From: Amycolatopsis keratiniphila subsp. keratiniphila
GTDB taxonomy: Bacteria > Actinomycetota > Actinomycetes > Mycobacteriales > Pseudonocardiaceae
Direction: 5' to 3'
DNA: 64,000 nucleotides
Assembly (NCBI RefSeq): GCF_001620365.2
Contig: NZ_LQMT02000029.1
Span: 1 to 64,000 of the forward strand
Shown here: positions 52,182 through 64,000 of the stretch, in pieces
Position numbering within the stretch: position 1 is the stretch's first letter
Layout of the letters: each line of letters begins with the position of its first letter
Notes under the pieces: generated by a model
Databases searched by the model: none
Seen by the model: the letters and a program-made list of their open reading frames with translations, nothing else
What the model was told of the DNA's origin: nothing
Program-made: the position numbers and the translations under genes

Positions 52182-53084
52182 ATGGCGCAACGGAAAGCGG
52201 TGGCCGCGATCGTCGGTCCCGGAAACATCGGCACCGACCTGCTCGCGAAGCTGAGGCGCAGCGAGCACGTCGAGGTGCGGTACATGGTCGGCGTGGACCC
52301 GGAGTCGGACGGGCTGGCGAAGGCCGCGGAGCTGGGGTTGGAGACCTCCGCCGGCGGTGTCGACTGGCTGCTGTCGCGGGACGAGCTGCCGGACCTGGTC
52401 TTCGAGGCGACTTCGGCGAAGGCGCATCTGGCGAACGCGCCGCGCTACGCCACCGCCGGGATCCGCGCGATCGACCTGACCCCGGCCGCGGTCGGCCCGT
52501 TCACCTGCCCCGCGGTTGGCCTGCCCGAACGGCTCGACGTGCCCAACGTCAACCTCATCACCTGCGGCGGCCAGGCCACGATCCCGATCGTGCACGCGGT
52601 CTCGCGGGTGACGCCGGTGCCCTACGCCGAGATCGTCGCGTCCGTCTCGTCGCGTTCGGCCGGGCCGGGCACGCGCGCGAACATCGACGAGTTCACCGCG
52701 ACGACGGCGCGCGGGATCGAACTCGTCGGGGGAGCGAGCCGCGGCAAGGCGATCATCATCATCAACCCGGTCGAACCGCCGATGATCATGCGCGACACCG
52801 TGTTCTGCGCGATCGACCCGGACGCGGACTTCGACGCGGTGAGCGAATCCATCCACCGGATGGTCGAAACCGTCCAGGGATACGTGCCGGGCTACACGCT
52901 GAAAGCGGATCCGCAGTACGACCCGCCCCGGCCTGGCTGGAGCGGGCAGGCACGGGTCGCGGTGTTCCTGGAGGTCGCCGGGAACGGGGACTTCCTGCCG
53001 AAATACGCCGGGAATCTCGACATCATGACGGCCGCGGCCGCCCGTGTCGGTGACCTCCTGGCCACTCAGGAGGTGGCGGCATGA
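52182..53084 (+). CDS. Acetaldehyde dehydrogenase (acylating), meta-cleavage pathway
   Basis: 300-residue CoA-acylating aldehyde dehydrogenase of the DmpF/MhpF/HsaG family. It converts acetaldehyde (or propanal) to acyl-CoA with NAD+. The nucleotide-binding N-terminus is [14 protein letters not shown], and the catalytic cysteine is C128 in [15 protein letters not shown]. The C-terminal NNP-like metal-free core follows. It overlaps the aldolase gene by 4 nt (ATGA); in this family the two enzymes form a channelling complex. The divergent IclR gene is the likely regulator. Confidence 0.95.
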
Positions 53085-54115
53085 GCTGGGACGACGTGAG
53101 CCGTGAGGTCCGGATCGTCGACACGAGCCTGCGCGACGGCAGCCATGCGATGGCGCACCAGTTCACCGAGAAGAACGTGCGCGACACCGTCCGGGCGCTG
53201 GATGACGCCGGGGTCTCGCTGATCGAGGTCAGCCACGGCGACGGGCTCGGCGGCTCGACGTTCAACTACGGGTTTTCCCTTGTGGACGAACGGAAGCTGA
53301 TCGAGGCGGCGGTCGACGAGGCACGGCACGCGAAGATCGCGGTGCTGCTGCTGCCGGGTCTCGGCACGGTCGGCGACCTGCGGGTGGCCGCGGACCTCGG
53401 CGCCGGCGCGGTCCGGATCGCGACCCACTGCACCGAGGCCGACGTCTCCGTCCAGCACTTCGGCGCGGCGCGCGAGCTCGGGCTGGAGACGGTCGGTTTC
53501 CTGATGCTGTCCCATATGTCCACGCCCGAGGCGCTGGCGAAACAGGGCCGGATCATGGTCGACGCCGGCTGCCAGTGCGTGTACGTCGTCGACTCCGCCG
53601 GGGCGCTGATCCTGGAGGACGCGAGCGAACGCGTCGCCGCGCTGGTCGCCGAATTCGGGGACGAGGCGCAGGTCGGCTACCACGGGCATCAGAACCTGAG
53701 CTTCGGCGTCGCGAACTCGGTGCTCGCCTACCGGGCGGGCGCGCGGCAGATCGACGGCTCGCTCGTGGCACTCGGCGCGGGCGCCGGCAACTCGCCGACC
53801 GAGGTCCTCGCTGCCACCTTCGAGCGGCTCGGGATCCGCACGGGCGTCGACAAGGACGTGCTGATGGACGCGGCCGAGAACGTCGTGAAGCCCTACATCA
53901 CCCGGCTGCCGGTGATGGACCGGTCGTCGATCGTGCAGGGTTTCGCCGGGGTGTACTCGAGTTTCCTCCTGCACGCCGAACGTGCCGCGGAACGTTACGA
54001 CGTCCCGGCGCACGAGATCCTCTACCGCGTCGGCGCCGCGAAGTACGTGGGCGGGCAGGAGGACATGATCATCGACATCGCCCTGCAGCTGGTCGCCGAA
54101 CGCGGTCAGGGTTGA
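53081..54115 (+). CDS. 4-hydroxy-2-oxovalerate aldolase
   Basis: 344-residue class II aldolase of the DmpG/MhpE/HsaF family. It splits 4-hydroxy-2-oxoacids to pyruvate and an aldehyde that is channelled to the partner dehydrogenase. The HMGL-like barrel begins with [19 protein letters not shown], giving the metal-binding aspartate and catalytic arginine. [14 protein letters not shown] provides the two metal-binding histidines. The C-terminal communication domain follows. The third enzyme of the usual set, 2-hydroxypentadienoate hydratase, is not encoded here. The 3' end overlaps a convergent TetR gene by 10 nt. Confidence 0.95.
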
Positions 54116-54699
54116 CGGTCGGCGCCGAGCACGAGGCGGACGCAATGCTCGATCAGGCGCTCGCGGCTCACCTTGAGCGAGCCGTCGAGGTAGGCGATGA
54201 ACACGTTGCTCAGCGCGCCCACCAGTCCGATCGAGGTCATCTGCCGCTCGGCCGCGTCACCGTGCGACAGCTGTCCGCTGACCAGCTCGGCGAAGGAGGG
54301 GAGGAGCGCGATCCCGCGCGTCGTCAGCGCGGGATCGGTGATCGGCGCGAGCAGGAGCACCCGGCCCTTGCGCGGGTCGTCGAGCATCAACTCGACGAAC
54401 GCGCGGACGGCGGCCTTCGCCCGTTCGGCGGGTTCGGCGGTGTCGCTGACCGCGTCGACCAGCGCCTGCCGGGCCTGCTCGCCGATGTGCTCGTAGACCG
54501 CGACGACCAGTTCTTCGCGGTCGGCGAAGCTCTCGTAGAAGTACCGCTCCGTCAGCTTGGCGTGGCGGCACACCGCGCGGACGCTCACCCCCGCACTGCC
54601 CTGGGTGCCGAGCAGGTCGAGGCCCGCGTCGACGAGCTGTCCCCGCCTCGCGGCCTTGCGGTCGTCCAGGGTCGTGCCTGCCCAGCTGCGGCCGGCCAT
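54106..54699 (-). CDS. TetR-family transcriptional regulator
   Basis: 197-residue repressor. The N-terminal helix-turn-helix lies at about 20-60 ([47 protein letters not shown]), followed by an all-helical ligand domain. It is divergent from the MpaB-type oxygenase gene across a 90-nt gap that contains inverted repeats, suggesting it controls itself and that oxygenase. The effector is unknown. Confidence 0.88.
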
Positions 54700-54713
54700 G
54701 ATCGGCTCCTCTT

Positions 54714-54760
54714 GTTGACTACGGCCGTTGTCAACTTTAACCTGACAACAGTTGTGGTCA
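54714..54760. promoter_or_regulatory. Candidate TetR operator pair
   Basis: GTTGAC (54714-54719) and GTCAAC (54730-54735) form one imperfect palindrome. ACAACAGTTGT (54745-54755) forms a second, within TGACAACAGTTGTGGTCA. Both lie in the divergent gap between the TetR and MpaB-type genes. The region is also unusually AT-rich for this genome. Confidence 0.55.
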
Positions 54761-54789
54761 ATTTAACCAGCTCATTGAGGAGACCGGGG

Positions 54790-55710
54790 ATGACGCAGCC
54801 GCGGCCGCTGGGACCGGATTCGCTGACCTGGAAGTACTTCGGCGACTGGCGCGGGCTGCTCATCGCGCTCTGGGCCGGATCCATGCAGAACATGCACCCC
54901 GAGCTGGGCGCGGGCGTCGAAGAGCACTCGCGGTTCTTCGAGGAGCGCTGGCAGCGGCTGTTCCGCTCGCTCTACCCGATCGGGGGAGTGATCTACGACG
55001 GCCCGCGGGCGCGGCAGACCGCGCTGGAGGTGCGGGGTTACCACGATCGGATCAAGGGCGTCGACAAACACGGGCGGCGCTATCACGCGCTCAACCCGGA
55101 CACGTTCTACTGGGCGCATTCGACGTTCTTCGTGAGCGCGATCCTCATCGCCGACAACTTCTGCGGCGGCATCGGCGAGGCCGAGAAGCGGAAACTCTTC
55201 GAAGAGCACGTGCAGTGGTACGAGATGTACGGGATGAGCATGCGCCCGGTGCCGGAGTCGTGGGAGGACTTCCAGCTGTACTGGAAGCGCATGTGCGAGG
55301 ACGTGCTGGAGGACAACAAGGCCACGCGCGACGTCCTCGAGATCGGGGACATAGCCAAACCGCATTTCCTGACCTGGCTGCCGGATTTCGCGTGGAACCT
55401 CGTGCGCGGGCACGTGGCGCGGAACTTCGTCTGGCTGACGATCGGCCTGTACGACCCGCCGATCCGCGAGCGGCTCGGCTACACGTGGACCGAACGCGAC
55501 GAGCGACGGCACCGCCGGGTGGGGAAGCTGATCAACGCGGCGTTCAAGCTGGTCCCGCGCGATCGCCGCTACCACCCGCGGGCCAGGGCGGGCTGGCGCC
55601 GCGAGCGTGGCGAACTGGCCCCGGACGCGCCGTTGGTCGAGACTCCCGCGAGGAACCTCCCGCCGCTTTCGGAGCGGGGCAAACCCGAGCACTACTCACC
55701 GAACGTCTGA
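54790..55710 (+). CDS. MpaB-type oxygenase (DUF2236)
   Basis: 306-residue protein of the DUF2236 family, which includes fungal MpaB and bacterial rubber oxygenase (latex clearing protein), b-type haem oxygenases. Candidate haem ligand and core residues are in YYWAHSTFF-like FYWAHSTFFVSAILIA and RGYHDRIKGVD. The ATG at 54790 follows GAGGAGA. The function in this family is mostly unproven. The adjacent F420-type enzyme, 12 nt downstream, suggests a shared oxidative pathway under TetR control. The long reading from 53575 is a shadow of the aldolase gene. Confidence 0.82.
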   Translation: MTQPRPLGPDSLTWKYFGDWRGLLIALWAGSMQNMHPELGAGVEEHSRFFEERWQRLFRSLYPIGGVIYDGPRARQTALEVRGYHDRIKGVDKHGRRYHALNPDTFYWAHSTFFVSAILIADNFCGGIGEAEKRKLFEEHVQWYEMYGMSMRPVPESWEDFQLYWKRMCEDVLEDNKATRDVLEIGDIAKPHFLTWLPDFAWNLVRGHVARNFVWLTIGLYDPPIRERLGYTWTERDERRHRRVGKLINAAFKLVPRDRRYHPRARAGWRRERGELAPDAPLVETPARNLPPLSERGKPEHYSPNV

Positions 55711-55722
55711 CGAGGAGCCTCG

Positions 55723-56748
55723 ATGAAGCTTGGTTACCACCTCGGTTACTGGTCCTCCGGCCCACCGGAGGGCGCGCTGGACGCGATCCTGCGGGCCGAA
55801 GAACTCGGCTTCGATTCGGTGTGGACCGCCGAGGGTTACGGCTCGGACGCGTTCACCCCGCTCGCCTGGTGGGGCGCGTCGACCAGCCGGATCAAGCTCG
55901 GCACCGACATCGTCCAGATGTCGGCGCGTACCCCGACCGCGACGGCGATGCACGCGCTGACGCTGGACCATCTGTCGGGCGGGCGGTTCGTGCTCGGGCT
56001 CGGCGCGTCCGGGCCGCAGGTGGTCGAAGGCTGGTACGGGCAGCCGTATCCGAAACCGCTCGCGCGCACCCGCGAGTACGTCGACATCGTGCGGAAGGTC
56101 GTCGCGCGTGAGGCGCCGGTGACGCATGACGGGCGGCATTTCCAGTTGCCGCTGCAGGGTGGCACCGGGCTCGGCAAGCCGCTGAAGTCCACAGTGCACC
56201 CGTTCCGCAAGGAGATCCCGATCTTCCTCGCCGCGGAGGGACCGAAGAACGTGGCGCTGTCGGCGGAGATCTGCGACGGCTGGCTCCCGTTGTTCTTCTC
56301 GCCCAAGAGCGACGCCTTCTACCGGACAGCGTTGCAGGAAGGCTTCTCGCGCCCCGGTGCCCGGCATGGTTTCGACGATTTCGAGGTCGCCGCGTCCGTC
56401 CCGGTGCTCGTCCACGACGACGTCGAAGAGGCCGCGAGCTGGATCAAACCGTCGCTCGCGCTCTACATCGGCGGTATGGGCGCGAAATCGGTCAACTTCC
56501 ACCACGACGTCTTCGCCCGGATGGGGTATGAGGACGTCGCCGACAAGGTCCAGGAGCTGTACCTGGCCGGGCGCAAGGACGAGGCGACCGCCGCGATCCC
56601 GACATCGCTGGTGGAGGACACGTCGCTGATCGGGCCGGCGGAGAAGATCCGCGACGAACTGGCGGTGTGGGAGGAGACCGTGGTGACCACGTTGCTGCTG
56701 CGGGGGGATGCGGCGACGCTCACGAAGGTGGCCGAGACCCGCGGGTAG
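55723..56748 (+). CDS. LLM-class F420-dependent oxidoreductase
   Basis: 341-residue luciferase-like enzyme of the F420-dependent type, starting MKLGYHLGYWSSGPPEG. The core contains EELGFDSVWTAEGYGSDAFTPLAWWGA and LDHLSGGRFVLGLGASGPQVVEGWYGQPY, the latter a strong F420-LLM signature. AAEGPKNVALSAEICDGWLP follows. Actinobacterial members oxidise or reduce diverse substrates with coenzyme F420; the substrate here is unknown. It is in an operon with the MpaB-type oxygenase. Confidence 0.9.
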   Translation: MKLGYHLGYWSSGPPEGALDAILRAEELGFDSVWTAEGYGSDAFTPLAWWGASTSRIKLGTDIVQMSARTPTATAMHALTLDHLSGGRFVLGLGASGPQVVEGWYGQPYPKPLARTREYVDIVRKVVAREAPVTHDGRHFQLPLQGGTGLGKPLKSTVHPFRKEIPIFLAAEGPKNVALSAEICDGWLPLFFSPKSDAFYRTALQEGFSRPGARHGFDDFEVAASVPVLVHDDVEEAASWIKPSLALYIGGMGAKSVNFHHDVFARMGYEDVADKVQELYLAGRKDEATAAIPTSLVEDTSLIGPAEKIRDELAVWEETVVTTLLLRGDAATLTKVAETRG

Positions 56749-56899: not shown

Positions 56900-56934
56900 A
56901 TTCGAGACGCGAGCGTCCCCTTGACGATGTGACT

Positions 56935-56956
56935 CGAGTGTGGAGGATTTGGGACG
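56935..56956. repeat. Left half of the palindrome split by the IS
   Basis: This 22-nt segment is the exact reverse complement of 58589-58610 on the other side of the element. Joined through one copy of TTGAA, the halves form a perfect hairpin whose inner part, GGGACGTTGAACGTCCC, is the family core. Confidence 0.85.
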
Positions 56957-56961
56957 TTGAA

Positions 56962-58583
56962 TCTGGATCCACCGGTGTGGTTGTGGGTTGGTCTTGGTGA
57001 TGGTTGTTGATCTTGTGTTTGGTTGGTGGGCGGGGTGGTTCGCCGGCCGTCGCATCCGGTGTGTCCACTGTGGTCTGGTTGTGGGAGCGGGGGTCAGGTT
57101 GTTCGGTGTGTTGCGGTGAAGAGGGTTTGGTAGGCGGTTTGCCAGGGCCAGTTCGCTGGTAGTCGCAGGGTGATGCGGCGGGCGGTGCGGGTGATGCGGG
57201 CGGGGATGGCGATCAGGTGCCGGCGCAGGGTTGCGGTGCGGGCTTTGGCGTGGAATCCGCTGGTGAGGCAGCCTGTGGCGCGGAGCAGGTTGTGGGTGAG
57301 GCAGGCCAGGATGAGCCAGGCGTGGTTGGCGGGGAAGCGGCCGGAGGGGAAGTGCGCGAGGGCTGCGGCGTTGAGGTCGGCGAAGACCTGTTCGATGATC
57401 GCGTGTTTGCGGTGATAGTCGTCGGCGGTGTGCAGGTCGAAGCCGGTGTCGGTGAACACGGCGTGGTAGTTCCAGGTGCGGAACAACTCGCCCTGGGCGT
57501 CGGCTTTGAACCGTGGGGTGCGGCGGACCAGCAGCCGGGCGGTGACCTGGCGGCCGGGGTTCTGGGTGGTGTTGGTGAACGCGGTCAGGGTGGTTTCGGC
57601 GATCTCGGCGTGGGTGATCAACTCGCCGGTTTCGGGGTCGGGGATCGGGTGCCGGTAGGCGATCTCGTCCCACTGATCCTCGTCGATCCGGTCGATCACA
57701 GCCTGGGTGGCGACGTTTTTCTGGGCGGTGACCGAGAACCAGGCGCCCGCCTTGCGGATCGCGGTGATGATCGGGCCGGTGAAGAACGCCGAATCCGCGC
57801 GGACCACGACCGTCCCGGTCGCGCCGGCCCGGCGGGCGAGACCGATCGCCTCGGTGATCATCGACGCCGCCCCGCGGCGGGAATCAGCGTTCCCGCCGCG
57901 CAGCCGGGCGGTCAGGACCACCGGCGCGCAGACCGGGCTGGAGAGGGTCGCGACCAGGTGGTTCAGGCCGCGGACGCCGTTATAGGCGAACCCGCTGCCC
58001 TGTTTGCCGTGACCGTAGGTTTCCTTGATCTTGGAATCGATGTCGATGAACGCCAGCTGCTCGACCCCGGCCAGCAGCGACGGCACCCGCCCGGCCAGCC
58101 GGACCAGAGCCTCGGCCACGGCCGAGGCGAGCTGACCGACGTGGCCATGGGTGAACCCGCGCAACCACGACCCACACGTCGAGGGCGCGCGGAGACCGGT
58201 GAACAACCGGCGCATCCCACCATGCCGGATCACGTCCAGGTCCTCGATCGAGTCCGCCCCGGCGACCATGCCCGCCACCACCGAGAGTGCTTTCGCGTCC
58301 GTGTTCGCCCCGACCGGAATCCCCAGGTCAACCCGCTGTTCGATCAGCCCGCCCAGGCCGATGTCCTCGGCCAGCCGCAGCACCGGCACCAGCCCCGCGC
58401 ACGACACCAGACCCGCATCATCGAACCTCACCGACACCGAACCGGCGGTATGAGAAGATCGCATCCAGCAGATGCCCTCTCGCTAGGTGGATTTGTTCCG
58501 TCGCAAGAACAATCATCCCAAGCCAGAGGGCATTTGCGTACCCGGACACACCCCAACACCCACACCACACCGGTGGATCCAGG
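56962..58583. mobile_element. IS1380-family insertion sequence
   Basis: 1622-bp element. Terminal inverted repeats share CTGGATCCACCGGTGTGG (left from 56963; right, inverted, ending at 58582), with one extra mismatched base at each tip. The sequence TTGAA occurs directly on both sides (56957-56961 and 58584-58588), which fits a 4-5 bp target duplication. A single intact transposase gene fills the element on the minus strand. The near-perfect ends, duplication and open frame suggest a recent, possibly active insertion. Confidence 0.85.
57094..58464 (-). CDS. IS1380-family transposase
   Basis: 456-residue DDE transposase. The first acidic motif is in LAFIDIDSKIKETYGHGKQGSGFAYNGVRGLNHLVATL. VVVRADSAFFTGPIITAIRKAGAWFSVTAQ carries the second aspartate, and HRKHAIIEQVFADLNAAALAHFPSGRFPANHAWLILACLTHNLLR carries the glutamate in the family YREK-like helix. 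The N-terminus (SVSVRFDDAGLVSCAGLVPVLRLAEDIGL) is typical of actinobacterial IS1380 members. The frame is full length with no stop or shift. Confidence 0.93.
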   Translation of the reverse strand: MRSSHTAGSVSVRFDDAGLVSCAGLVPVLRLAEDIGLGGLIEQRVDLGIPVGANTDAKALSVVAGMVAGADSIEDLDVIRHGGMRRLFTGLRAPSTCGSWLRGFTHGHVGQLASAVAEALVRLAGRVPSLLAGVEQLAFIDIDSKIKETYGHGKQGSGFAYNGVRGLNHLVATLSSPVCAPVVLTARLRGGNADSRRGAASMITEAIGLARRAGATGTVVVRADSAFFTGPIITAIRKAGAWFSVTAQKNVATQAVIDRIDEDQWDEIAYRHPIPDPETGELITHAEIAETTLTAFTNTTQNPGRQVTARLLVRRTPRFKADAQGELFRTWNYHAVFTDTGFDLHTADDYHRKHAIIEQVFADLNAAALAHFPSGRFPANHAWLILACLTHNLLRATGCLTSGFHAKARTATLRRHLIAIPARITRTARRITLRLPANWPWQTAYQTLFTATHRTT

Positions 58584-58588
58584 TTGAA

Positions 58589-58610
58589 CGTCCCAAATCC
58601 TCCACACTCG
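58589..58610. repeat. Right half of the palindrome split by the IS
   Basis: Exact reverse complement of 56935-56956. See the left-half entry. Confidence 0.85.
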
Positions 58611-58703
58611 ACCGTCGTGGAACATCCTTTGTGGACATGCTGAGCAGTGTGTGAGGCGCCCGCCTTTCGTGGGGTTGCGGCAGTGAGGCCCATCACGTAG
58701 CGT

Positions 58704-58744
58704 CCCGGCCACGAACGTGAAGTCGGTTCATGTTCGTGGCCGGG
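58704..58744. promoter_or_regulatory. Inverted repeat overlapping the ceramidase ribosome binding site
   Basis: CCCGGCCACGAAC (58704-58716) and its exact complement (58732-58744) with a 15-nt loop. The right arm runs into the GGGAGG Shine-Dalgarno sequence (58742-58747) of the ceramidase gene, so folding would mask translation start; it could equally be a repressor operator heading the sphingolipid operon. Confidence 0.6.
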
Positions 58745-58755
58745 AGGTGCGACTC

Positions 58756-60771
58756 ATGACGGTGAGCCGGAGGCGGGTTCTCGCGGGTGCGGCGGCGTTG
58801 CCCGTCGCGGCGAGCGTGCTCGGCGCCCAGCAGGCGCAAGCGGCGCCGACGAAGGGTTTCCGCGTCGGCGTCGGCCTTTCCGACGTCACCGGCCCGGCGG
58901 CCGAGAACGGCATGATGGGCTACTCGATGCCGCAGCAGCAGACCGCCGGCATCCACCTCCGCACCCGGGCGCGGGCGTTCGTGGTCGACGACGGCACCAA
59001 GCGGATCGCCTTCGTCACCGCCGACCTCGGCGCGCTGTTCCAGTCCGTCCATCAAGGCGTGCTTCGCAAGCTCCAGGCCGCGTACGGCGACCTGTACACC
59101 GAGCAGAACGTGCTGCTCAACGCCACGCACACCCACTCCGCGTGCGGCGGGGATTCCCATTACGCCGCTTACGATCTGGCGATCCTCGGCTTCCAACAGC
59201 AGGTGTACGACGCGCACGTCGACGGGATCTTCGAGGCCATCGGCCGCGCGCACGCGAACCTCGCGCCCGGGTCGATCCGGCTCGGCCGCGCCGAGCTCAC
59301 CAAGGCGAGTGTCAACCGTTCCCGCAAGGCCTTCGACCTGAACCCGCAGGCCGACAAGGACCACTTCCCGCAGGCGATCGACCCGGCCGTCACGGTGCTG
59401 CGATTCAGTCAGAACGGCGTCGACGTCGGCGCGATCAGCTGGTTCGCCACGCACGGGACGTCGATGAGCAACGGCAACCACCTGATCAGCGGCGACAACA
59501 AGGGTTACGCCGCCTACGAGTGGGAGCACGACCACGCCGGCGTGCGTTACCTCGACGGGAACCCGCGGTTCGTCGCCGCCTTCCCGCAGACCAACACCGG
59601 CGACATGAGCCCGAATCTCAACCTCGAACCCGGCACGCCCGAAACCGAGTTCGAGAACACCCGCACCATCGGGGATCTCCAGTTCCGTGCGGCGAAGAGC
59701 GCCTTCGACACCGCCGCCGAGGCCGTGACGGGCGGCGTCGACCACCGGATGTGCTACGTGGACATGTCCGACGTGACCGTCGACGCGAAGTACACCCCGA
59801 ACGGGCGGCCGCAGCGCACCTGCACCGCCGCGATCGGCGTCTCGATGCTGGCGGGCAGCCGCGAGGACGGCCCCGGCCTGCCGCTGCCGGAAGGGGTCAA
59901 GAACCCGTTCATCGACTGGCTCGGCGGCATCGACGCGCCAATCCCGCAGGCACTCGCCGACGCGCACGCGCCGAAGGTGATCGCGGTGCCGTTCGGCGCG
60001 ATGAAGCCGTATCCGTGGACGCCGGAGGTCCTGCCGCTGCAGCTCGTCCGGATCGGGCAGCTGCACCTCGTGGCCGTGCCCGCCGAACTGACCATCGTCG
60101 CCGGGCTGCGCCTGCGCCGGACCGTCGCCGCCGAACTCGGTGTCCCGCTGGAGAACGTGCTCATCCAGGGCTACGCCAACGCCTACAGCCAGTACGTCAC
60201 CACGCCGGAGGAGTACGACTCGCAGCAGTACGAAGGCGCGTCGACCCTCTACGGCCGCTACACGCTTCCGGCGTACCAGCAGGAATTCGCGAAACTCGCG
60301 GCGGCGATGAAGGCGGGGACAGCGGTCCCGCACGGCCCGACGCCGCGCGATCTGCGCGGCAAGCTGATCAACTTCCAGCCCGGCGTCGTCTTCGACAGCC
60401 CGCCCGCGTTCAAGAGCTTCGGTGACGTCCTGACCGACGCGAAGAGCACCTACGCGCGCGGCGAGCAGGTCGTCGTCGAGTTCGTCACCGGGCATCCGAA
60501 GAACGACCTGCGGCGCGGCGGCACCTTCCTGGAGATCCAACGGCTGGTCGACGGCAAATGGGTCCGCCACGCCGACGACGGTGACTGGGACACGAAGTAC
60601 CACTGGGCGCGGACGTTCGTCGCCGAATCGAAAGCCGTCGTCCACTGGAAGATCCCCGCGAACGCCCCGATCGGCAAGTATCGCGTGGTCCACTTCGGCA
60701 ACTGGAAGAACGGCTGGAACGGGGCGATCTCCGCGTTCAGCGGGACTTCGCGGACGTTCGTCGTTTCCTGA
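58756..60771 (+). CDS. Secreted neutral/alkaline ceramidase
   Basis: 671-residue amidohydrolase that splits ceramide to sphingosine and fatty acid. The N-terminus MTVSRRRVLAGAAALPVAASVLGAQQAQA is a Tat-type signal, so the enzyme acts outside the cell. The zinc-site motif NATHTHSACGGDSHY, the stretch SWFATHGTSM and the amidase hexapeptide GDMSPN (nucleophile S285) match neutral ceramidases; a C-terminal Ig-like domain follows. The ATG at 58756 has GGGAGG nine bases upstream. It is first in an operon with sphingomyelinase, 17 nt away. An inverted repeat covers its ribosome binding site. Confidence 0.93.
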   Translation: MTVSRRRVLAGAAALPVAASVLGAQQAQAAPTKGFRVGVGLSDVTGPAAENGMMGYSMPQQQTAGIHLRTRARAFVVDDGTKRIAFVTADLGALFQSVHQGVLRKLQAAYGDLYTEQNVLLNATHTHSACGGDSHYAAYDLAILGFQQQVYDAHVDGIFEAIGRAHANLAPGSIRLGRAELTKASVNRSRKAFDLNPQADKDHFPQAIDPAVTVLRFSQNGVDVGAISWFATHGTSMSNGNHLISGDNKGYAAYEWEHDHAGVRYLDGNPRFVAAFPQTNTGDMSPNLNLEPGTPETEFENTRTIGDLQFRAAKSAFDTAAEAVTGGVDHRMCYVDMSDVTVDAKYTPNGRPQRTCTAAIGVSMLAGSREDGPGLPLPEGVKNPFIDWLGGIDAPIPQALADAHAPKVIAVPFGAMKPYPWTPEVLPLQLVRIGQLHLVAVPAELTIVAGLRLRRTVAAELGVPLENVLIQGYANAYSQYVTTPEEYDSQQYEGASTLYGRYTLPAYQQEFAKLAAAMKAGTAVPHGPTPRDLRGKLINFQPGVVFDSPPAFKSFGDVLTDAKSTYARGEQVVVEFVTGHPKNDLRRGGTFLEIQRLVDGKWVRHADDGDWDTKYHWARTFVAESKAVVHWKIPANAPIGKYRVVHFGNWKNGWNGAISAFSGTSRTFVVS

Positions 60772-60788
60772 CACCGAAAGGGTCTTTC

Positions 60789-61748
60789 GTGCGGAAGCTC
60801 GCCGTACTCGCCATCGCCGCCGCCCTGTTCGCCGGAACCGCCCTGCCCGCCCAAGCGGCGGTCTCGGTGAAGGTCATGGCGTTCAACATCTGGCAGCTGC
60901 CCTGGATCGCCAGTCCGAACACTTCGGACAAACAGGCCAGGGCTCGCGCGGCGGAGGACGTCATCCGTGCGCAGGACGCCGACGTCGTCGTCCTGGACGA
61001 GGCGTTCAGCGCCCAGGCGGAGGAACTGCGAAACCGGCTGAAGGACGTCTGGCCGCATCAGACCCCGCTCGTCGGCCAGTACTGCTCCACGTCGCCGGGC
61101 TGGACCACGGTGAACGGCAACTGCTCGAATTCCCCGATCGTGGTCAACGGCGGGGTCACCGTGCTGAGCAAGGCACCGGTGACCGAACAGCACCAGCTGG
61201 TCTTCCGCAATTCCTACTCCGGTACCGCGGACTATCTGTCGAACAAGGGTGCCGCGCTCGCCCGTCTGGTCGTCGCCGGGAAGCCGGTCTGGATCGCGGG
61301 CACCCACATGCAGGCCGACGAGGGGCCGGAGACGCTGCCGAAGGCGCACGACGTCCGGATGGCGCAGCTCGGCGAAATCCGTGACCTGGTCACGAAATAC
61401 GCCCCCGCCCGCGAGCCGGTCGTCATCGCGGGCGACCTGAACATCGAGTACTGGGCGGGACAAGCGCGCAAGGATTCCCTCGGCCGGACCCAGGTCCAGC
61501 AGGGTGAGGCCTTCCTCGACGGTGTTCTCCGCACGACGGGCGAAGGCGCGTACACCTTCGACGCGGCGACGAACCCGAACGCGGCGAAGTCCGTTCCGGC
61601 GACCTACCGCGACTCGCTGGACTACGTCGGGGCCGTACGCGCGGGCGGCCGTCCACTCGCCGCTGTCGGCCCGGTACAGCTCGTGCATTACGACGGTGGC
61701 ACGATTCCCTCCGACCACTACCCGGTGGTGGCCAAGATCCAATACTGA
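60789..61748 (+). CDS. Secreted sphingomyelinase-like phosphodiesterase
   Basis: 319-residue protein of the DNase I-like endonuclease/exonuclease/phosphatase fold, closest in pattern to bacterial neutral sphingomyelinases. A Sec signal (MRKLAVLAIAAALFAGTALPAQAA) is followed by KVMAFNIWQLPW, DADVVVLDEAF, WIAGTHMQADEGPE, VIAGDLNIEYW and the terminal SDHYPVVAKI. These give the metal-binding glutamate and the catalytic histidines. It would release phosphocholine and ceramide, the substrate of the preceding ceramidase. The start is a GTG at 60789 behind AAAGGG. Sphingomyelin specificity over other phospholipids is inferred from context. Confidence 0.85.
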   Translation: MRKLAVLAIAAALFAGTALPAQAAVSVKVMAFNIWQLPWIASPNTSDKQARARAAEDVIRAQDADVVVLDEAFSAQAEELRNRLKDVWPHQTPLVGQYCSTSPGWTTVNGNCSNSPIVVNGGVTVLSKAPVTEQHQLVFRNSYSGTADYLSNKGAALARLVVAGKPVWIAGTHMQADEGPETLPKAHDVRMAQLGEIRDLVTKYAPAREPVVIAGDLNIEYWAGQARKDSLGRTQVQQGEAFLDGVLRTTGEGAYTFDAATNPNAAKSVPATYRDSLDYVGAVRAGGRPLAAVGPVQLVHYDGGTIPSDHYPVVAKIQY

Positions 61749-61782
61749 GGCCTTCATCGGGAGAACCGCCTCGAGGAGGATC

Positions 61783-63087
61783 ATGGCAGCCCTGCCAGCA
61801 CGGACGAGGTACCGCTACTCGCTCGGCTCGTTCGTCACCGGCCCCTTCGGCACGGTTCCCGGCCTGCTCCTCCTGAAGTACCTCACCGACACGATGGGCG
61901 TCGCCGCGGGCGTCGCCGGCGCGATCGTGTTCATTCCCAAGGCATGGGATGTGCTGTTCAACCCCATCGCGGGGAGGCTGTCGGACGCGGACATGGTCCG
62001 CACCGGCAGCCGCCGCCGGTTCCTGCTCTTCGGCGGTATCGGCGTGTCGATCCTCTTCGCGGCCCTGTTCGCCCACCCCGGCTTCGGCGGCCCGGTGCCC
62101 GACGCGATCTACGTCGTCGTCGTGTTCCTGTTGTGCGCCACCGCGTACGCGTTCTTCCAGGTGCCGTTCAACGCGTTGCCCGCCGAACTGACCGACAACG
62201 CCGACGAACGCACGAAGCTGACCAGCATCCGGATCGGCTTCCTCGCGGTCGCCATCCTGATCTGCGGCGGCGGGGCCCCGGCGATCACCGAACTCGTCGG
62301 CGGCGTCACCGGTTACCGCGTCATGGGCGTGTTCATCGCCGTGATCATCCTGCTGGCGACCCTCGGCGTGTACTTCGGGCTGAAGGACGCGCCGGTCGGC
62401 GCGCTGCGGCCGAACACGGTGAGCCCGCGTGAACTGCTCCGGACACTCGCGCAGTGGCGGCCGTTCCGCTGGCTGCTCGGCGTCTACTTCGTCCAGGCGC
62501 TCGGTATCGGCACGGTGCTGGCCGCGATCCCGTTCTTCGCCGAGCGGATCCTCGGCAGTTCCGGCTACGCCACGGTCCTGTTCGTCGGTTTCGTCGGTCC
62601 GGCGCTGCTGACGATGCCGTTGTGGCCCAAGCTCGGGGCGAGTGTCGGGAAGCTCGTCGGGTTCCGGCTCGCCACCGCCGCGTTCGGCGTCGGTCTGTTC
62701 GGGCTTCTCGGCGCGAAGGTGTTCCCGTTCCCCGTCACGATGGTGTTCGTCGCCTTCTGCGGCGTCGGCTACGCGGGGATCTCGGTGTTCCCGCTGGCGA
62801 TCCTGCCGGATCTGATCAGCGACGAAGAGGAGCGGACCGGGGAGACCAGGGCCGGGGTGGCGGCCGGGGTCTGGACCGCGTCCGAAACGCTGGGACTGGC
62901 GCTCGGCCCGGGGATCTGGGGACTGGTGCTGCAGTTCGGCGGCTACCAGTCCAGCCTCGCGCCGGGTGCCGCGCAACCGGACAGCGCGCTGACGGCGATC
63001 CTGCTCGGCGCGTCGATCCTCCCGGCGGTGCTGATCCTGTTCGGTATCCCGCTGCTGCGCAGGTCGGTCCTGGAGCGCCGGTCGTGA
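61783..63087 (+). CDS. MFS_2 (MelB/MFSD2-like) transporter
   Basis: 434-residue membrane protein with about twelve segments, of the MFS_2 (GPH) branch. LLLKYLTDTMGVAAGVAGAIVFIPKAWDVLFNPIAGRLSD is the typical MFS_2 cation-site region (K..WD..NP..G..SD). QVPFNALPAELTDNADERTKLTSIR follows. The ATG at 61783 follows GAGGAGG. This branch includes sugar:cation symporters but also animal lysolipid and sphingosine-1-phosphate carriers. Between a sphingomyelinase and an S1P-lyase-like gene, uptake of sphingoid bases or a released head group is an attractive inference. It overlaps the next gene by 4 nt. Confidence 0.88.
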   Translation: MAALPARTRYRYSLGSFVTGPFGTVPGLLLLKYLTDTMGVAAGVAGAIVFIPKAWDVLFNPIAGRLSDADMVRTGSRRRFLLFGGIGVSILFAALFAHPGFGGPVPDAIYVVVVFLLCATAYAFFQVPFNALPAELTDNADERTKLTSIRIGFLAVAILICGGGAPAITELVGGVTGYRVMGVFIAVIILLATLGVYFGLKDAPVGALRPNTVSPRELLRTLAQWRPFRWLLGVYFVQALGIGTVLAAIPFFAERILGSSGYATVLFVGFVGPALLTMPLWPKLGASVGKLVGFRLATAAFGVGLFGLLGAKVFPFPVTMVFVAFCGVGYAGISVFPLAILPDLISDEEERTGETRAGVAAGVWTASETLGLALGPGIWGLVLQFGGYQSSLAPGAAQPDSALTAILLGASILPAVLILFGIPLLRRSVLERRS

Positions 63088-64000
63088 CCGCCGAGGACAT
63101 CCTGAAGGAGCTTCGGGAACTTCGGGCGGGGGACCTGCCGACCCACGGCGGCCGGACGCTCGCGTACGTCTACGACAGCGGTCTGTCCGAAGTGGACGAA
63201 CTCGGCTCCGCCGCGCACGCGCTGGCCTCGTCGGCCAACGGGCTCGATCCGACGGCTTTCCCGAGCCTGCTGCGGATGGAGAACGACCTCGTCGGCACCG
63301 CCGCGCGGCTGCTGGGCGGTACGGCGGAGACGGTCGGTTCCGTGACCTCGGGCGGTACGGAGTCGTGCATGCTCGCCGTCCTGGCCGCTCGCGACGCGCG
63401 TCCGGACGTGGCTACGCCGAACATCGTGCTGCCCACGACCGCGCACGCCGCGTTCCACAAAGCGGCGCATTTCTTCGGCGTGCACGTGGTCGCGGTGCCG
63501 GTCGATCCGGTGAGCTTCCGCGCCGTCCCCGAGGCGATGGCAGCCGCGGTCGACGAGAGCACGGTGCTCGTCGTCGCGAGCGCGCCGTCGTACGCGCACG
63601 GCGTCCTCGACCCGATCCCGGAGATCGCCGCGTTGCTGGACGGCGTCCGGTTCCACGTCGACGCCTGCATCGGCGGCTGGGTGCTGCCGTACCTGGGGCT
63701 CGGCCCGTTCGGCTTCGACGTTCCCGGTGTCACCAGTGTCTCGGTGGACCTCCACAAGTACGCGTACTGCCCGAAAGGCGTGTCGGTCCTGCTGCACGCC
63801 GACGCCGGGCTGCGCCGTTCGCAGTACTTCGCCAGCGCGGACTGGCCCGGCTACACGATGCTGAACACCACGCTGCAGAGCACGCGCTCCGGCGGACCGC
63901 TCGCCGCCGCGTGGGCCGTCGTGCGTCATGTCGGCGAAGAGGGTTACCGGAAGCTGGCTTCCGCGGCGCGCGAGGCGGCCGTGGAGCTCCGTGCCGGGAT
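63084..64000 (+). CDS. Sphingosine-1-phosphate lyase-like PLP enzyme (3' end beyond window)
   Basis: Open frame of at least 305 codons from a GTG at 63084 (GTGA overlap with the MFS stop), running off the window. It is a group II PLP-dependent decarboxylase/lyase: PLP-phosphate motif SGGTES, VDACIGGWVLPYL with the ring-binding aspartate, and the PLP lysine K225 in SVDLHKYAYCPKGVS. The segment YFASADWPGYTMLNTTLQSTRSGGPLAAAWAVVRHVGEEGY closely recalls sphingosine-1-phosphate lyases rather than glutamate decarboxylases. It would cleave a phosphorylated long-chain base to a fatty aldehyde and phosphoethanolamine, completing the pathway begun by the secreted enzymes upstream. Substrate is inferred from family and operon. 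Confidence 0.8.
   Translation, partial: MTAEDILKELRELRAGDLPTHGGRTLAYVYDSGLSEVDELGSAAHALASSANGLDPTAFPSLLRMENDLVGTAARLLGGTAETVGSVTSGGTESCMLAVLAARDARPDVATPNIVLPTTAHAAFHKAAHFFGVHVVAVPVDPVSFRAVPEAMAAAVDESTVLVVASAPSYAHGVLDPIPEIAALLDGVRFHVDACIGGWVLPYLGLGPFGFDVPGVTSVSVDLHKYAYCPKGVSVLLHADAGLRRSQYFASADWPGYTMLNTTLQSTRSGGPLAAAWAVVRHVGEEGYRKLASAAREAAVELRAG

Follow-up and report, generated by a model that had tools for sequence, protein, structure and literature searches.

A gene pair encoding an MFS_2-family carrier and a sphingosine-1-phosphate (S1P) lyase-like PLP enzyme is conserved across the Actinomycetes, and in about half of Amycolatopsis species genes for a ceramidase and a sphingomyelinase (SMase) lie upstream of it. 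Amycolatopsis keratiniphila subsp. keratiniphila (9.09 Mb genome) carries all four genes at the end of the window, by which we mean the whole stretch of DNA analyzed, which covers the opening 64 kb of a 166-kb contig. Judging from sequence, it is probable that these genes form a sphingolipid-catabolic operon of some kind. The complete explanation that we favor, a regulated sphingolipid-catabolic operon with a lyase that probably acts on an unphosphorylated base, has in our estimation an even chance of being correct. The features of the locus are as follows.

58675-58680 and 58698-58703, + strand: inferred promoter of the ceramidase gene, TTGCGG and TAGCGT with a 17-nt spacer, read from the sequence
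58714-58734, no strand assigned: operator-like palindrome AACGTGAA-GTCGG-TTCATGTT, nested within a larger inverted repeat that spans 58703-58745
58756-60771, + strand: CER, secreted neutral ceramidase of 671 aa with a twin-arginine-like signal, SRRRVLAG (family match and sequence)
60789-61748, + strand: SMA, secreted SMase C-type phosphodiesterase of 319 aa (family and residues)
61783-63087, + strand: MFS_2 carrier, MFSD2/GPH-like, candidate sphingoid-base importer of 434 aa (family, profile and fold)
63084-64000, + strand: SPL, S1P-lyase-like PLP enzyme, 305 of 466 aa inside the window (sequence, profile and fold)
63165-63167 and 63246-63248, + strand: Y28 and D55, the replaced pocket residues of SPL
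63756-63758, + strand: K225, the PLP lysine of SPL

The four genes lie on one strand with spacings of 17 nt and 34 nt and then a 4-nt overlap, exactly as the original prediction had described them, and the motifs it named (GDMSPN, SDHYPV, SGGTES and K225) are all present. Its four family assignments, to ceramidase, SMase-type phosphodiesterase, MFS_2 and S1P-lyase-like enzyme, were likewise upheld. The SPL gene extends beyond the window to position 64484 (L002:5085-6485). The association is not due to chance, since the arrangement is repeated in Amycolatopsis species with protein identities as low as 70–80%.

To define the extent of the conserved unit we compared gene neighborhoods among relatives. 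The carrier gene is directly upstream of the lyase gene in 77 of 80 named actinomycete loci (73 by the gap rule of our script plus four with overlapping genes) and lies no more than 1.4 kb away at any of the 80, a set that spans Amycolatopsis, Prauserella, Saccharothrix, Nocardioides, Kribbella, Micromonospora, Actinoplanes, Streptomyces and others; a 4-nt overlap is the usual spacing. The lyase was found in 74/80 Amycolatopsis genomes and in 158/399 genomes of the order. A full-length operon-type ceramidase, adjoining the pair or the carrier, is present in 38 of the 80 Amycolatopsis genomes: 31 have all four genes, four lack SMA, and three have CER-SMA-MFS without an adjacent lyase. Ceramidases without a lyase are common, and in most actinomycetes the pair occurs without an adjacent ceramidase or SMase, in the company of other neighbors that differ between lineages. 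The four-gene set predicted for this actinobacterium is genuine. It is not organism-specific, as many other Actinomycetes possess the pair of carrier and lyase.

Two kinds of incomplete locus were observed. CER-SMA-MFS is kept with no lyase downstream at L100, L101 and L102 (genomes G004, G031 and G058), which suggests that the base is handled otherwise in these genomes or that the module is decaying. In another genome (G013:C57:119395-119754) the ceramidase match is cut to the last 120 residues, and SMA and the lyase are full length.

Upstream of the operon, the block at 52182-56748 contains acetaldehyde dehydrogenase, 4-hydroxy-2-oxovalerate aldolase, TetR, DUF2236-like and F420_Rv3520c-type LLM genes, and in Amycolatopsis and closely related genera it is retained beside the lyase pair. 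We take it to resemble a steroid-catabolism block such as the cholesterol cluster of M. tuberculosis. The LLM gene (55723-56748), which belongs to the F420_Rv3520c subfamily, and the DUF2236-like gene (54790-55710) were considered as operon members and rejected; they precede the core only in Amycolatopsis and near genera, and we treat them as neighbors. An IS1380-family element with 48-nt inverted arms (56934-58611; transposase 57094-58464, minus strand) separates the LLM gene from the operon and leaves the operon promoter and operator intact. No transposase match was found at this site in the relatives that were fetched.

The promoter and operator region (58675-58745) was absent from the original prediction, which began just inside it, at position 58704. 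The inverted repeats upstream of operon-type ceramidases have in common a palindrome, AACRYGAA-N5-TTCRYGTT, that overlaps the inferred ceramidase promoter, and the promoter pattern TTGC ... TAGCGT/TACGGT is itself repeated upstream of the ceramidase in most operon-type relatives. The palindrome is present with 0–2 mismatches at 28/28 operon-type ceramidase loci and upstream of the carrier in 0/118 ceramidase-less loci (minimum three mismatches), where a few loci represent the same genome fetched twice and independent counts are slightly lower. It was also not found upstream of two stand-alone ceramidases. The 9.09 Mb genome contains one exact copy and one further site at one mismatch. The palindrome persists between flanks that vary, evidence against a simple explanation by recent ancestry for the more diverged species. 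Since the palindrome begins approximately 10 nt past the inferred TAGCGT -10 element, action of a repressor is plausible, and we propose that the operon would be repressed until a lipid signal lifts the repression. The divergent TetR gene (54106-54699) was considered as the regulator of this site and rejected, as it is found also where both the ceramidase and the site are absent.

Profile searches with CER returned Ceramidase_alk (E = 5e-179) and the ceramidase C-terminal domain, and residues 35-670 match the neutral ceramidase of P. aeruginosa with 627 bits. The protein thus has the attributes of a neutral ceramidase, namely both Pfam domains, full length and a secretion signal, and scores 674 bits against the NCBIfam equivalog NF041649, under its strict cut-off of 1200. 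SMA matches the sphingomyelin phosphodiesterase model TIGR03395 (E = 2e-36) with 126 bits, as well as SmcL, the B. cereus SMase and other SMase C structures, and retains the metal and catalytic residues N33, E71, H173, D216, N218, D309 and H310. As its score is under the equivalog cut-off of 248, we infer rather than conclude that sphingomyelin is the sole substrate of SMA. Outside the cell, SMA would remove phosphocholine from sphingomyelin and CER would convert ceramide to a fatty acid and a free sphingoid base.

The carrier belongs to Pfam MFS_2 (E = 5e-79), the family that also contains the MelB/GPH sugar symporters, and scores 178 bits against TIGR00792, under the 231-bit cut-off. That it is MFSD2-like, as had been predicted, is borne out by profile and predicted fold: the profile of the carrier family gives its best match to MFSD2A (122.8 bits versus 96.4 for MelB), and a structural model (pLDDT 87.9) superposes on MFSD2A over 426 residues with a Z-score of 43.6 and an rmsd of 2.2 Å, compared with a Z-score of 39.0 for MelB. 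The sugar and cation residues of MelB are D19, D55, D59, D124, W128 and K377. Of these six, D55 alone is kept in the carrier and the others are all changed. Export of S1P by MFSD2B requires Asp85 and Lys413, which correspond to Asp97 and Lys436 of MFSD2A (PMC5862976). The carrier has a predicted fold like that of MFSD2A and MFSD2B but lacks this Asp and Lys pair: the Asp97 position is Asn (N60) in 146/146 carriers and the Lys436 position is Thr (T369) in 145/146, with a glutamate, Glu368, alongside in 144/146. With the MelB and MFSD2B positions changed, the carrier is missing the residues known for the sugar site as well as those known for S1P export. It is reasonable to suppose that a cationic amphiphile such as sphingosine is the substrate, and in our scheme the carrier would bring the sphingoid base into the cell.

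The original prediction that SPL is S1P-lyase-like held for sequence, profile, predicted fold and phylogeny, all of which group it with S1P lyases and not with decarboxylases. SPL scores 251 bits to the Symbiobacterium S1P lyase in the PDB and 81 to the best decarboxylase by sequence, and 391 versus 136 bits by profile. Its model (pLDDT 89.1) aligns with StSPL over 418 residues, including the C-terminal extension, with a Z-score of 50.8, an rmsd of 1.6 Å and approximately 39% identity over the structural alignment; Z-scores for the decarboxylases GAD and MfnA are 44 and 43, respectively. In the tree, S1P lyases and actinomycete lyases fall together (100/99), apart from two decarboxylases encoded in this genome, although the branches to this outgroup are long and two other outgroup reads without the PLP-lysine motif were left out. 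Known S1P lyases cluster in a subclade together with short actinomycete paralogs, to which the carrier-linked sequences do not belong. SPL thus has the fold, PLP-binding residues and C-terminal extension of StSPL, Burkholderia S1PL2021 and Legionella LpSPL, but differs from them in belonging to a separate clade, in having a gene that adjoins a carrier gene, and in two invariant replacements, H129 to Asp and A103 to Tyr.

These replacements fall in the head-group pocket. A review describes S1P lyase as the terminal enzyme of the sphingolipid pathway, regards the phosphate of its substrate as essential for binding, and gives Y105, H129, A103 (Ala or Thr), N126 and K317 as the residues of StSPL that hold this phosphate (PMC6148460). 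In all 142 carrier-linked lyases A103 is replaced by Tyr and H129 by Asp, so that SPL has lost two of the five phosphate-pocket residues, while Y105, N126 and K317 are retained in 142/142. The PLP-contact residues G168, T169, H201, C276, H310 and K311 (StSPL numbering) are likewise invariant in the 142 sequences, and S353 is mostly Thr. Six lyase-like sequences scored as unlinked are variable at the A103 and H129 positions; among these, L093 turned out to have its carrier at a distance of 2.8 kb and shows the linked pattern. The carrier-less paralogs L099, L105, L110 and L113 have other residues at both positions, and the last three fall with the known S1P lyases in the tree. An Asp at the H129 position is also found in group II decarboxylases, which counts against our explanation. 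Beside a bulky Tyr and an acidic Asp, a hydroxyl head group would probably be accommodated more readily than a phosphate, with the cautions that the retained, phosphate-binding K317 may still accept an anionic one and that our model covers one subunit of a pocket formed by two. A precedent exists in S1PL2021 of B. pseudomallei, in which Gln occupies the H129 position and whose rate on free sphingosine is approximately 8% of that on S1P (PMC5234717). The predicted cleavage of a phosphorylated base therefore needs revision: the enzyme is S1P-lyase-like, but two of five phosphate residues are lost and the carrier lacks the lysine required for S1P export. S1P lyase (EC 4.1.2.27) yields hexadecenal and phosphoethanolamine from S1P. 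We propose that SPL would catalyze retro-aldol C2-C3 cleavage to a long-chain aldehyde and an ethanolamine. That its substrate is an unphosphorylated sphingoid base we hold at slightly less than an even chance; if so, no kinase would be needed and the product would be free ethanolamine.

A sphingosine kinase gene had been expected beyond position 64000. None was found in the operon or, in sequence extended past the window, in the 13.5 kb 3' of the lyase gene, where two SRPBCC-like ORFs, an ArsR-like ORF, a DUF899-like ORF and an acyl-CoA-ligase-like gene lie downstream of SPL. Also past the window (L002:10373-14146) are two CobW-like GTPase genes near short ORFs resembling alternative ribosomal proteins, by eye probably a zinc-limitation cluster. 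Elsewhere in the genome three general lipid-kinase (DAGK_cat) genes are located on other contigs (C31, C11); none is typed as a sphingosine kinase, and one exceeds the YegS/Rv2252/BmrU lipid-kinase cut-off. A fusion of a PAP2-like phosphatase to a DAGK_cat lipid-kinase domain (L107:15900-17321) occurs in the same genome, unlinked to the operon. The three DAGK_cat genes bear on the main rival explanation, the classical route, in which a lipid kinase from another locus would phosphorylate the imported sphingosine and SPL would act on S1P like any other S1P lyase. The three genes, the one above the cut-off in particular, agree with such a route, as do the overall similarity of SPL to S1P lyases and its intact Y105, N126 and K317. 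The DAGK_cat family is however ubiquitous (13/14 control genomes), none of the three genes is operon-linked, and two phosphate-contact positions are invariably a bulky Tyr and an acidic Asp; we regard the classical route as unlikely, if still a serious competitor. Given the altered pocket, the carrier residues and the absent kinase, kinase-independent cleavage is the reading that fits best, with the balance roughly even.

Since the pair occurs mostly without a ceramidase or SMase, it may ancestrally have acted on something other than a sphingoid base. It is conceivable that the pair serves another substrate, either a different 2-amino-3-hydroxy lipid or amine or an amino acid that SPL would decarboxylate, and that ceramidase and SMase are mere co-regulated neighbors. 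We think this improbable: the wider spread of the pair relative to the linked ceramidase, the many ceramidases without a lyase and the divergent lyase pocket are what it would explain, but the operon-type ceramidase follows one conserved site and always lies immediately ahead of SMA and/or the carrier, decarboxylases score far lower against SPL, and the lyase clade stands apart from the two same-genome decarboxylases, on long outgroup branches. A further, highly improbable explanation is that S1P, or some other base in phosphorylated form, is what the carrier transports, so that the lyase would receive a phosphorylated substrate without a bacterial kinase. MFSD2B, of the same wider MFS group, does export S1P (PMC5862976), and MFSD2A resembles the carrier more closely than MelB does; against this, the required D85 and K413 are replaced by N60 and T369, and SMase and ceramidase would yield free sphingosine, not S1P. 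Returning to kinase-independent cleavage, we tentatively extend it to the Actinomycetes as a two-gene module, an MFS_2 importer of lipid type and a free-base lyase joined by translational coupling, to which Amycolatopsis would have added ceramidase and SMase under a dedicated operator to complete a scavenging operon.

The closest parallel is the SphR regulon of P. aeruginosa (ceramidase and sphBCD), which likewise includes a secreted ceramidase, sphingosine-responsive regulation and a predicted PLP aldolase, SphD, and for which PMC11893366 and the abstract of PMC5150637 name no kinase. In contrast to the Amycolatopsis operon, the periplasmic oxidase/cytochrome pair SphC/SphB is required in P. 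aeruginosa and SphD is dispensable, and the regulon is not a single ceramidase-SMase-carrier-lyase operon. A description of such an operon, or of the carrier-lyase pair, was not found in the open-licence literature. New here are the MFS-lyase core across Actinomycetes, the ceramidase-linked palindrome, and the altered lyase pocket and carrier residues. The carrier, a relative of the human MFSD2 proteins, is a candidate for a bacterial importer of sphingoid bases. If our reading is correct, a free-base lyase would constitute a second exit from the sphingolipid pathway, and soil bacteria could use it to exploit or detoxify antimicrobial sphingoid bases.
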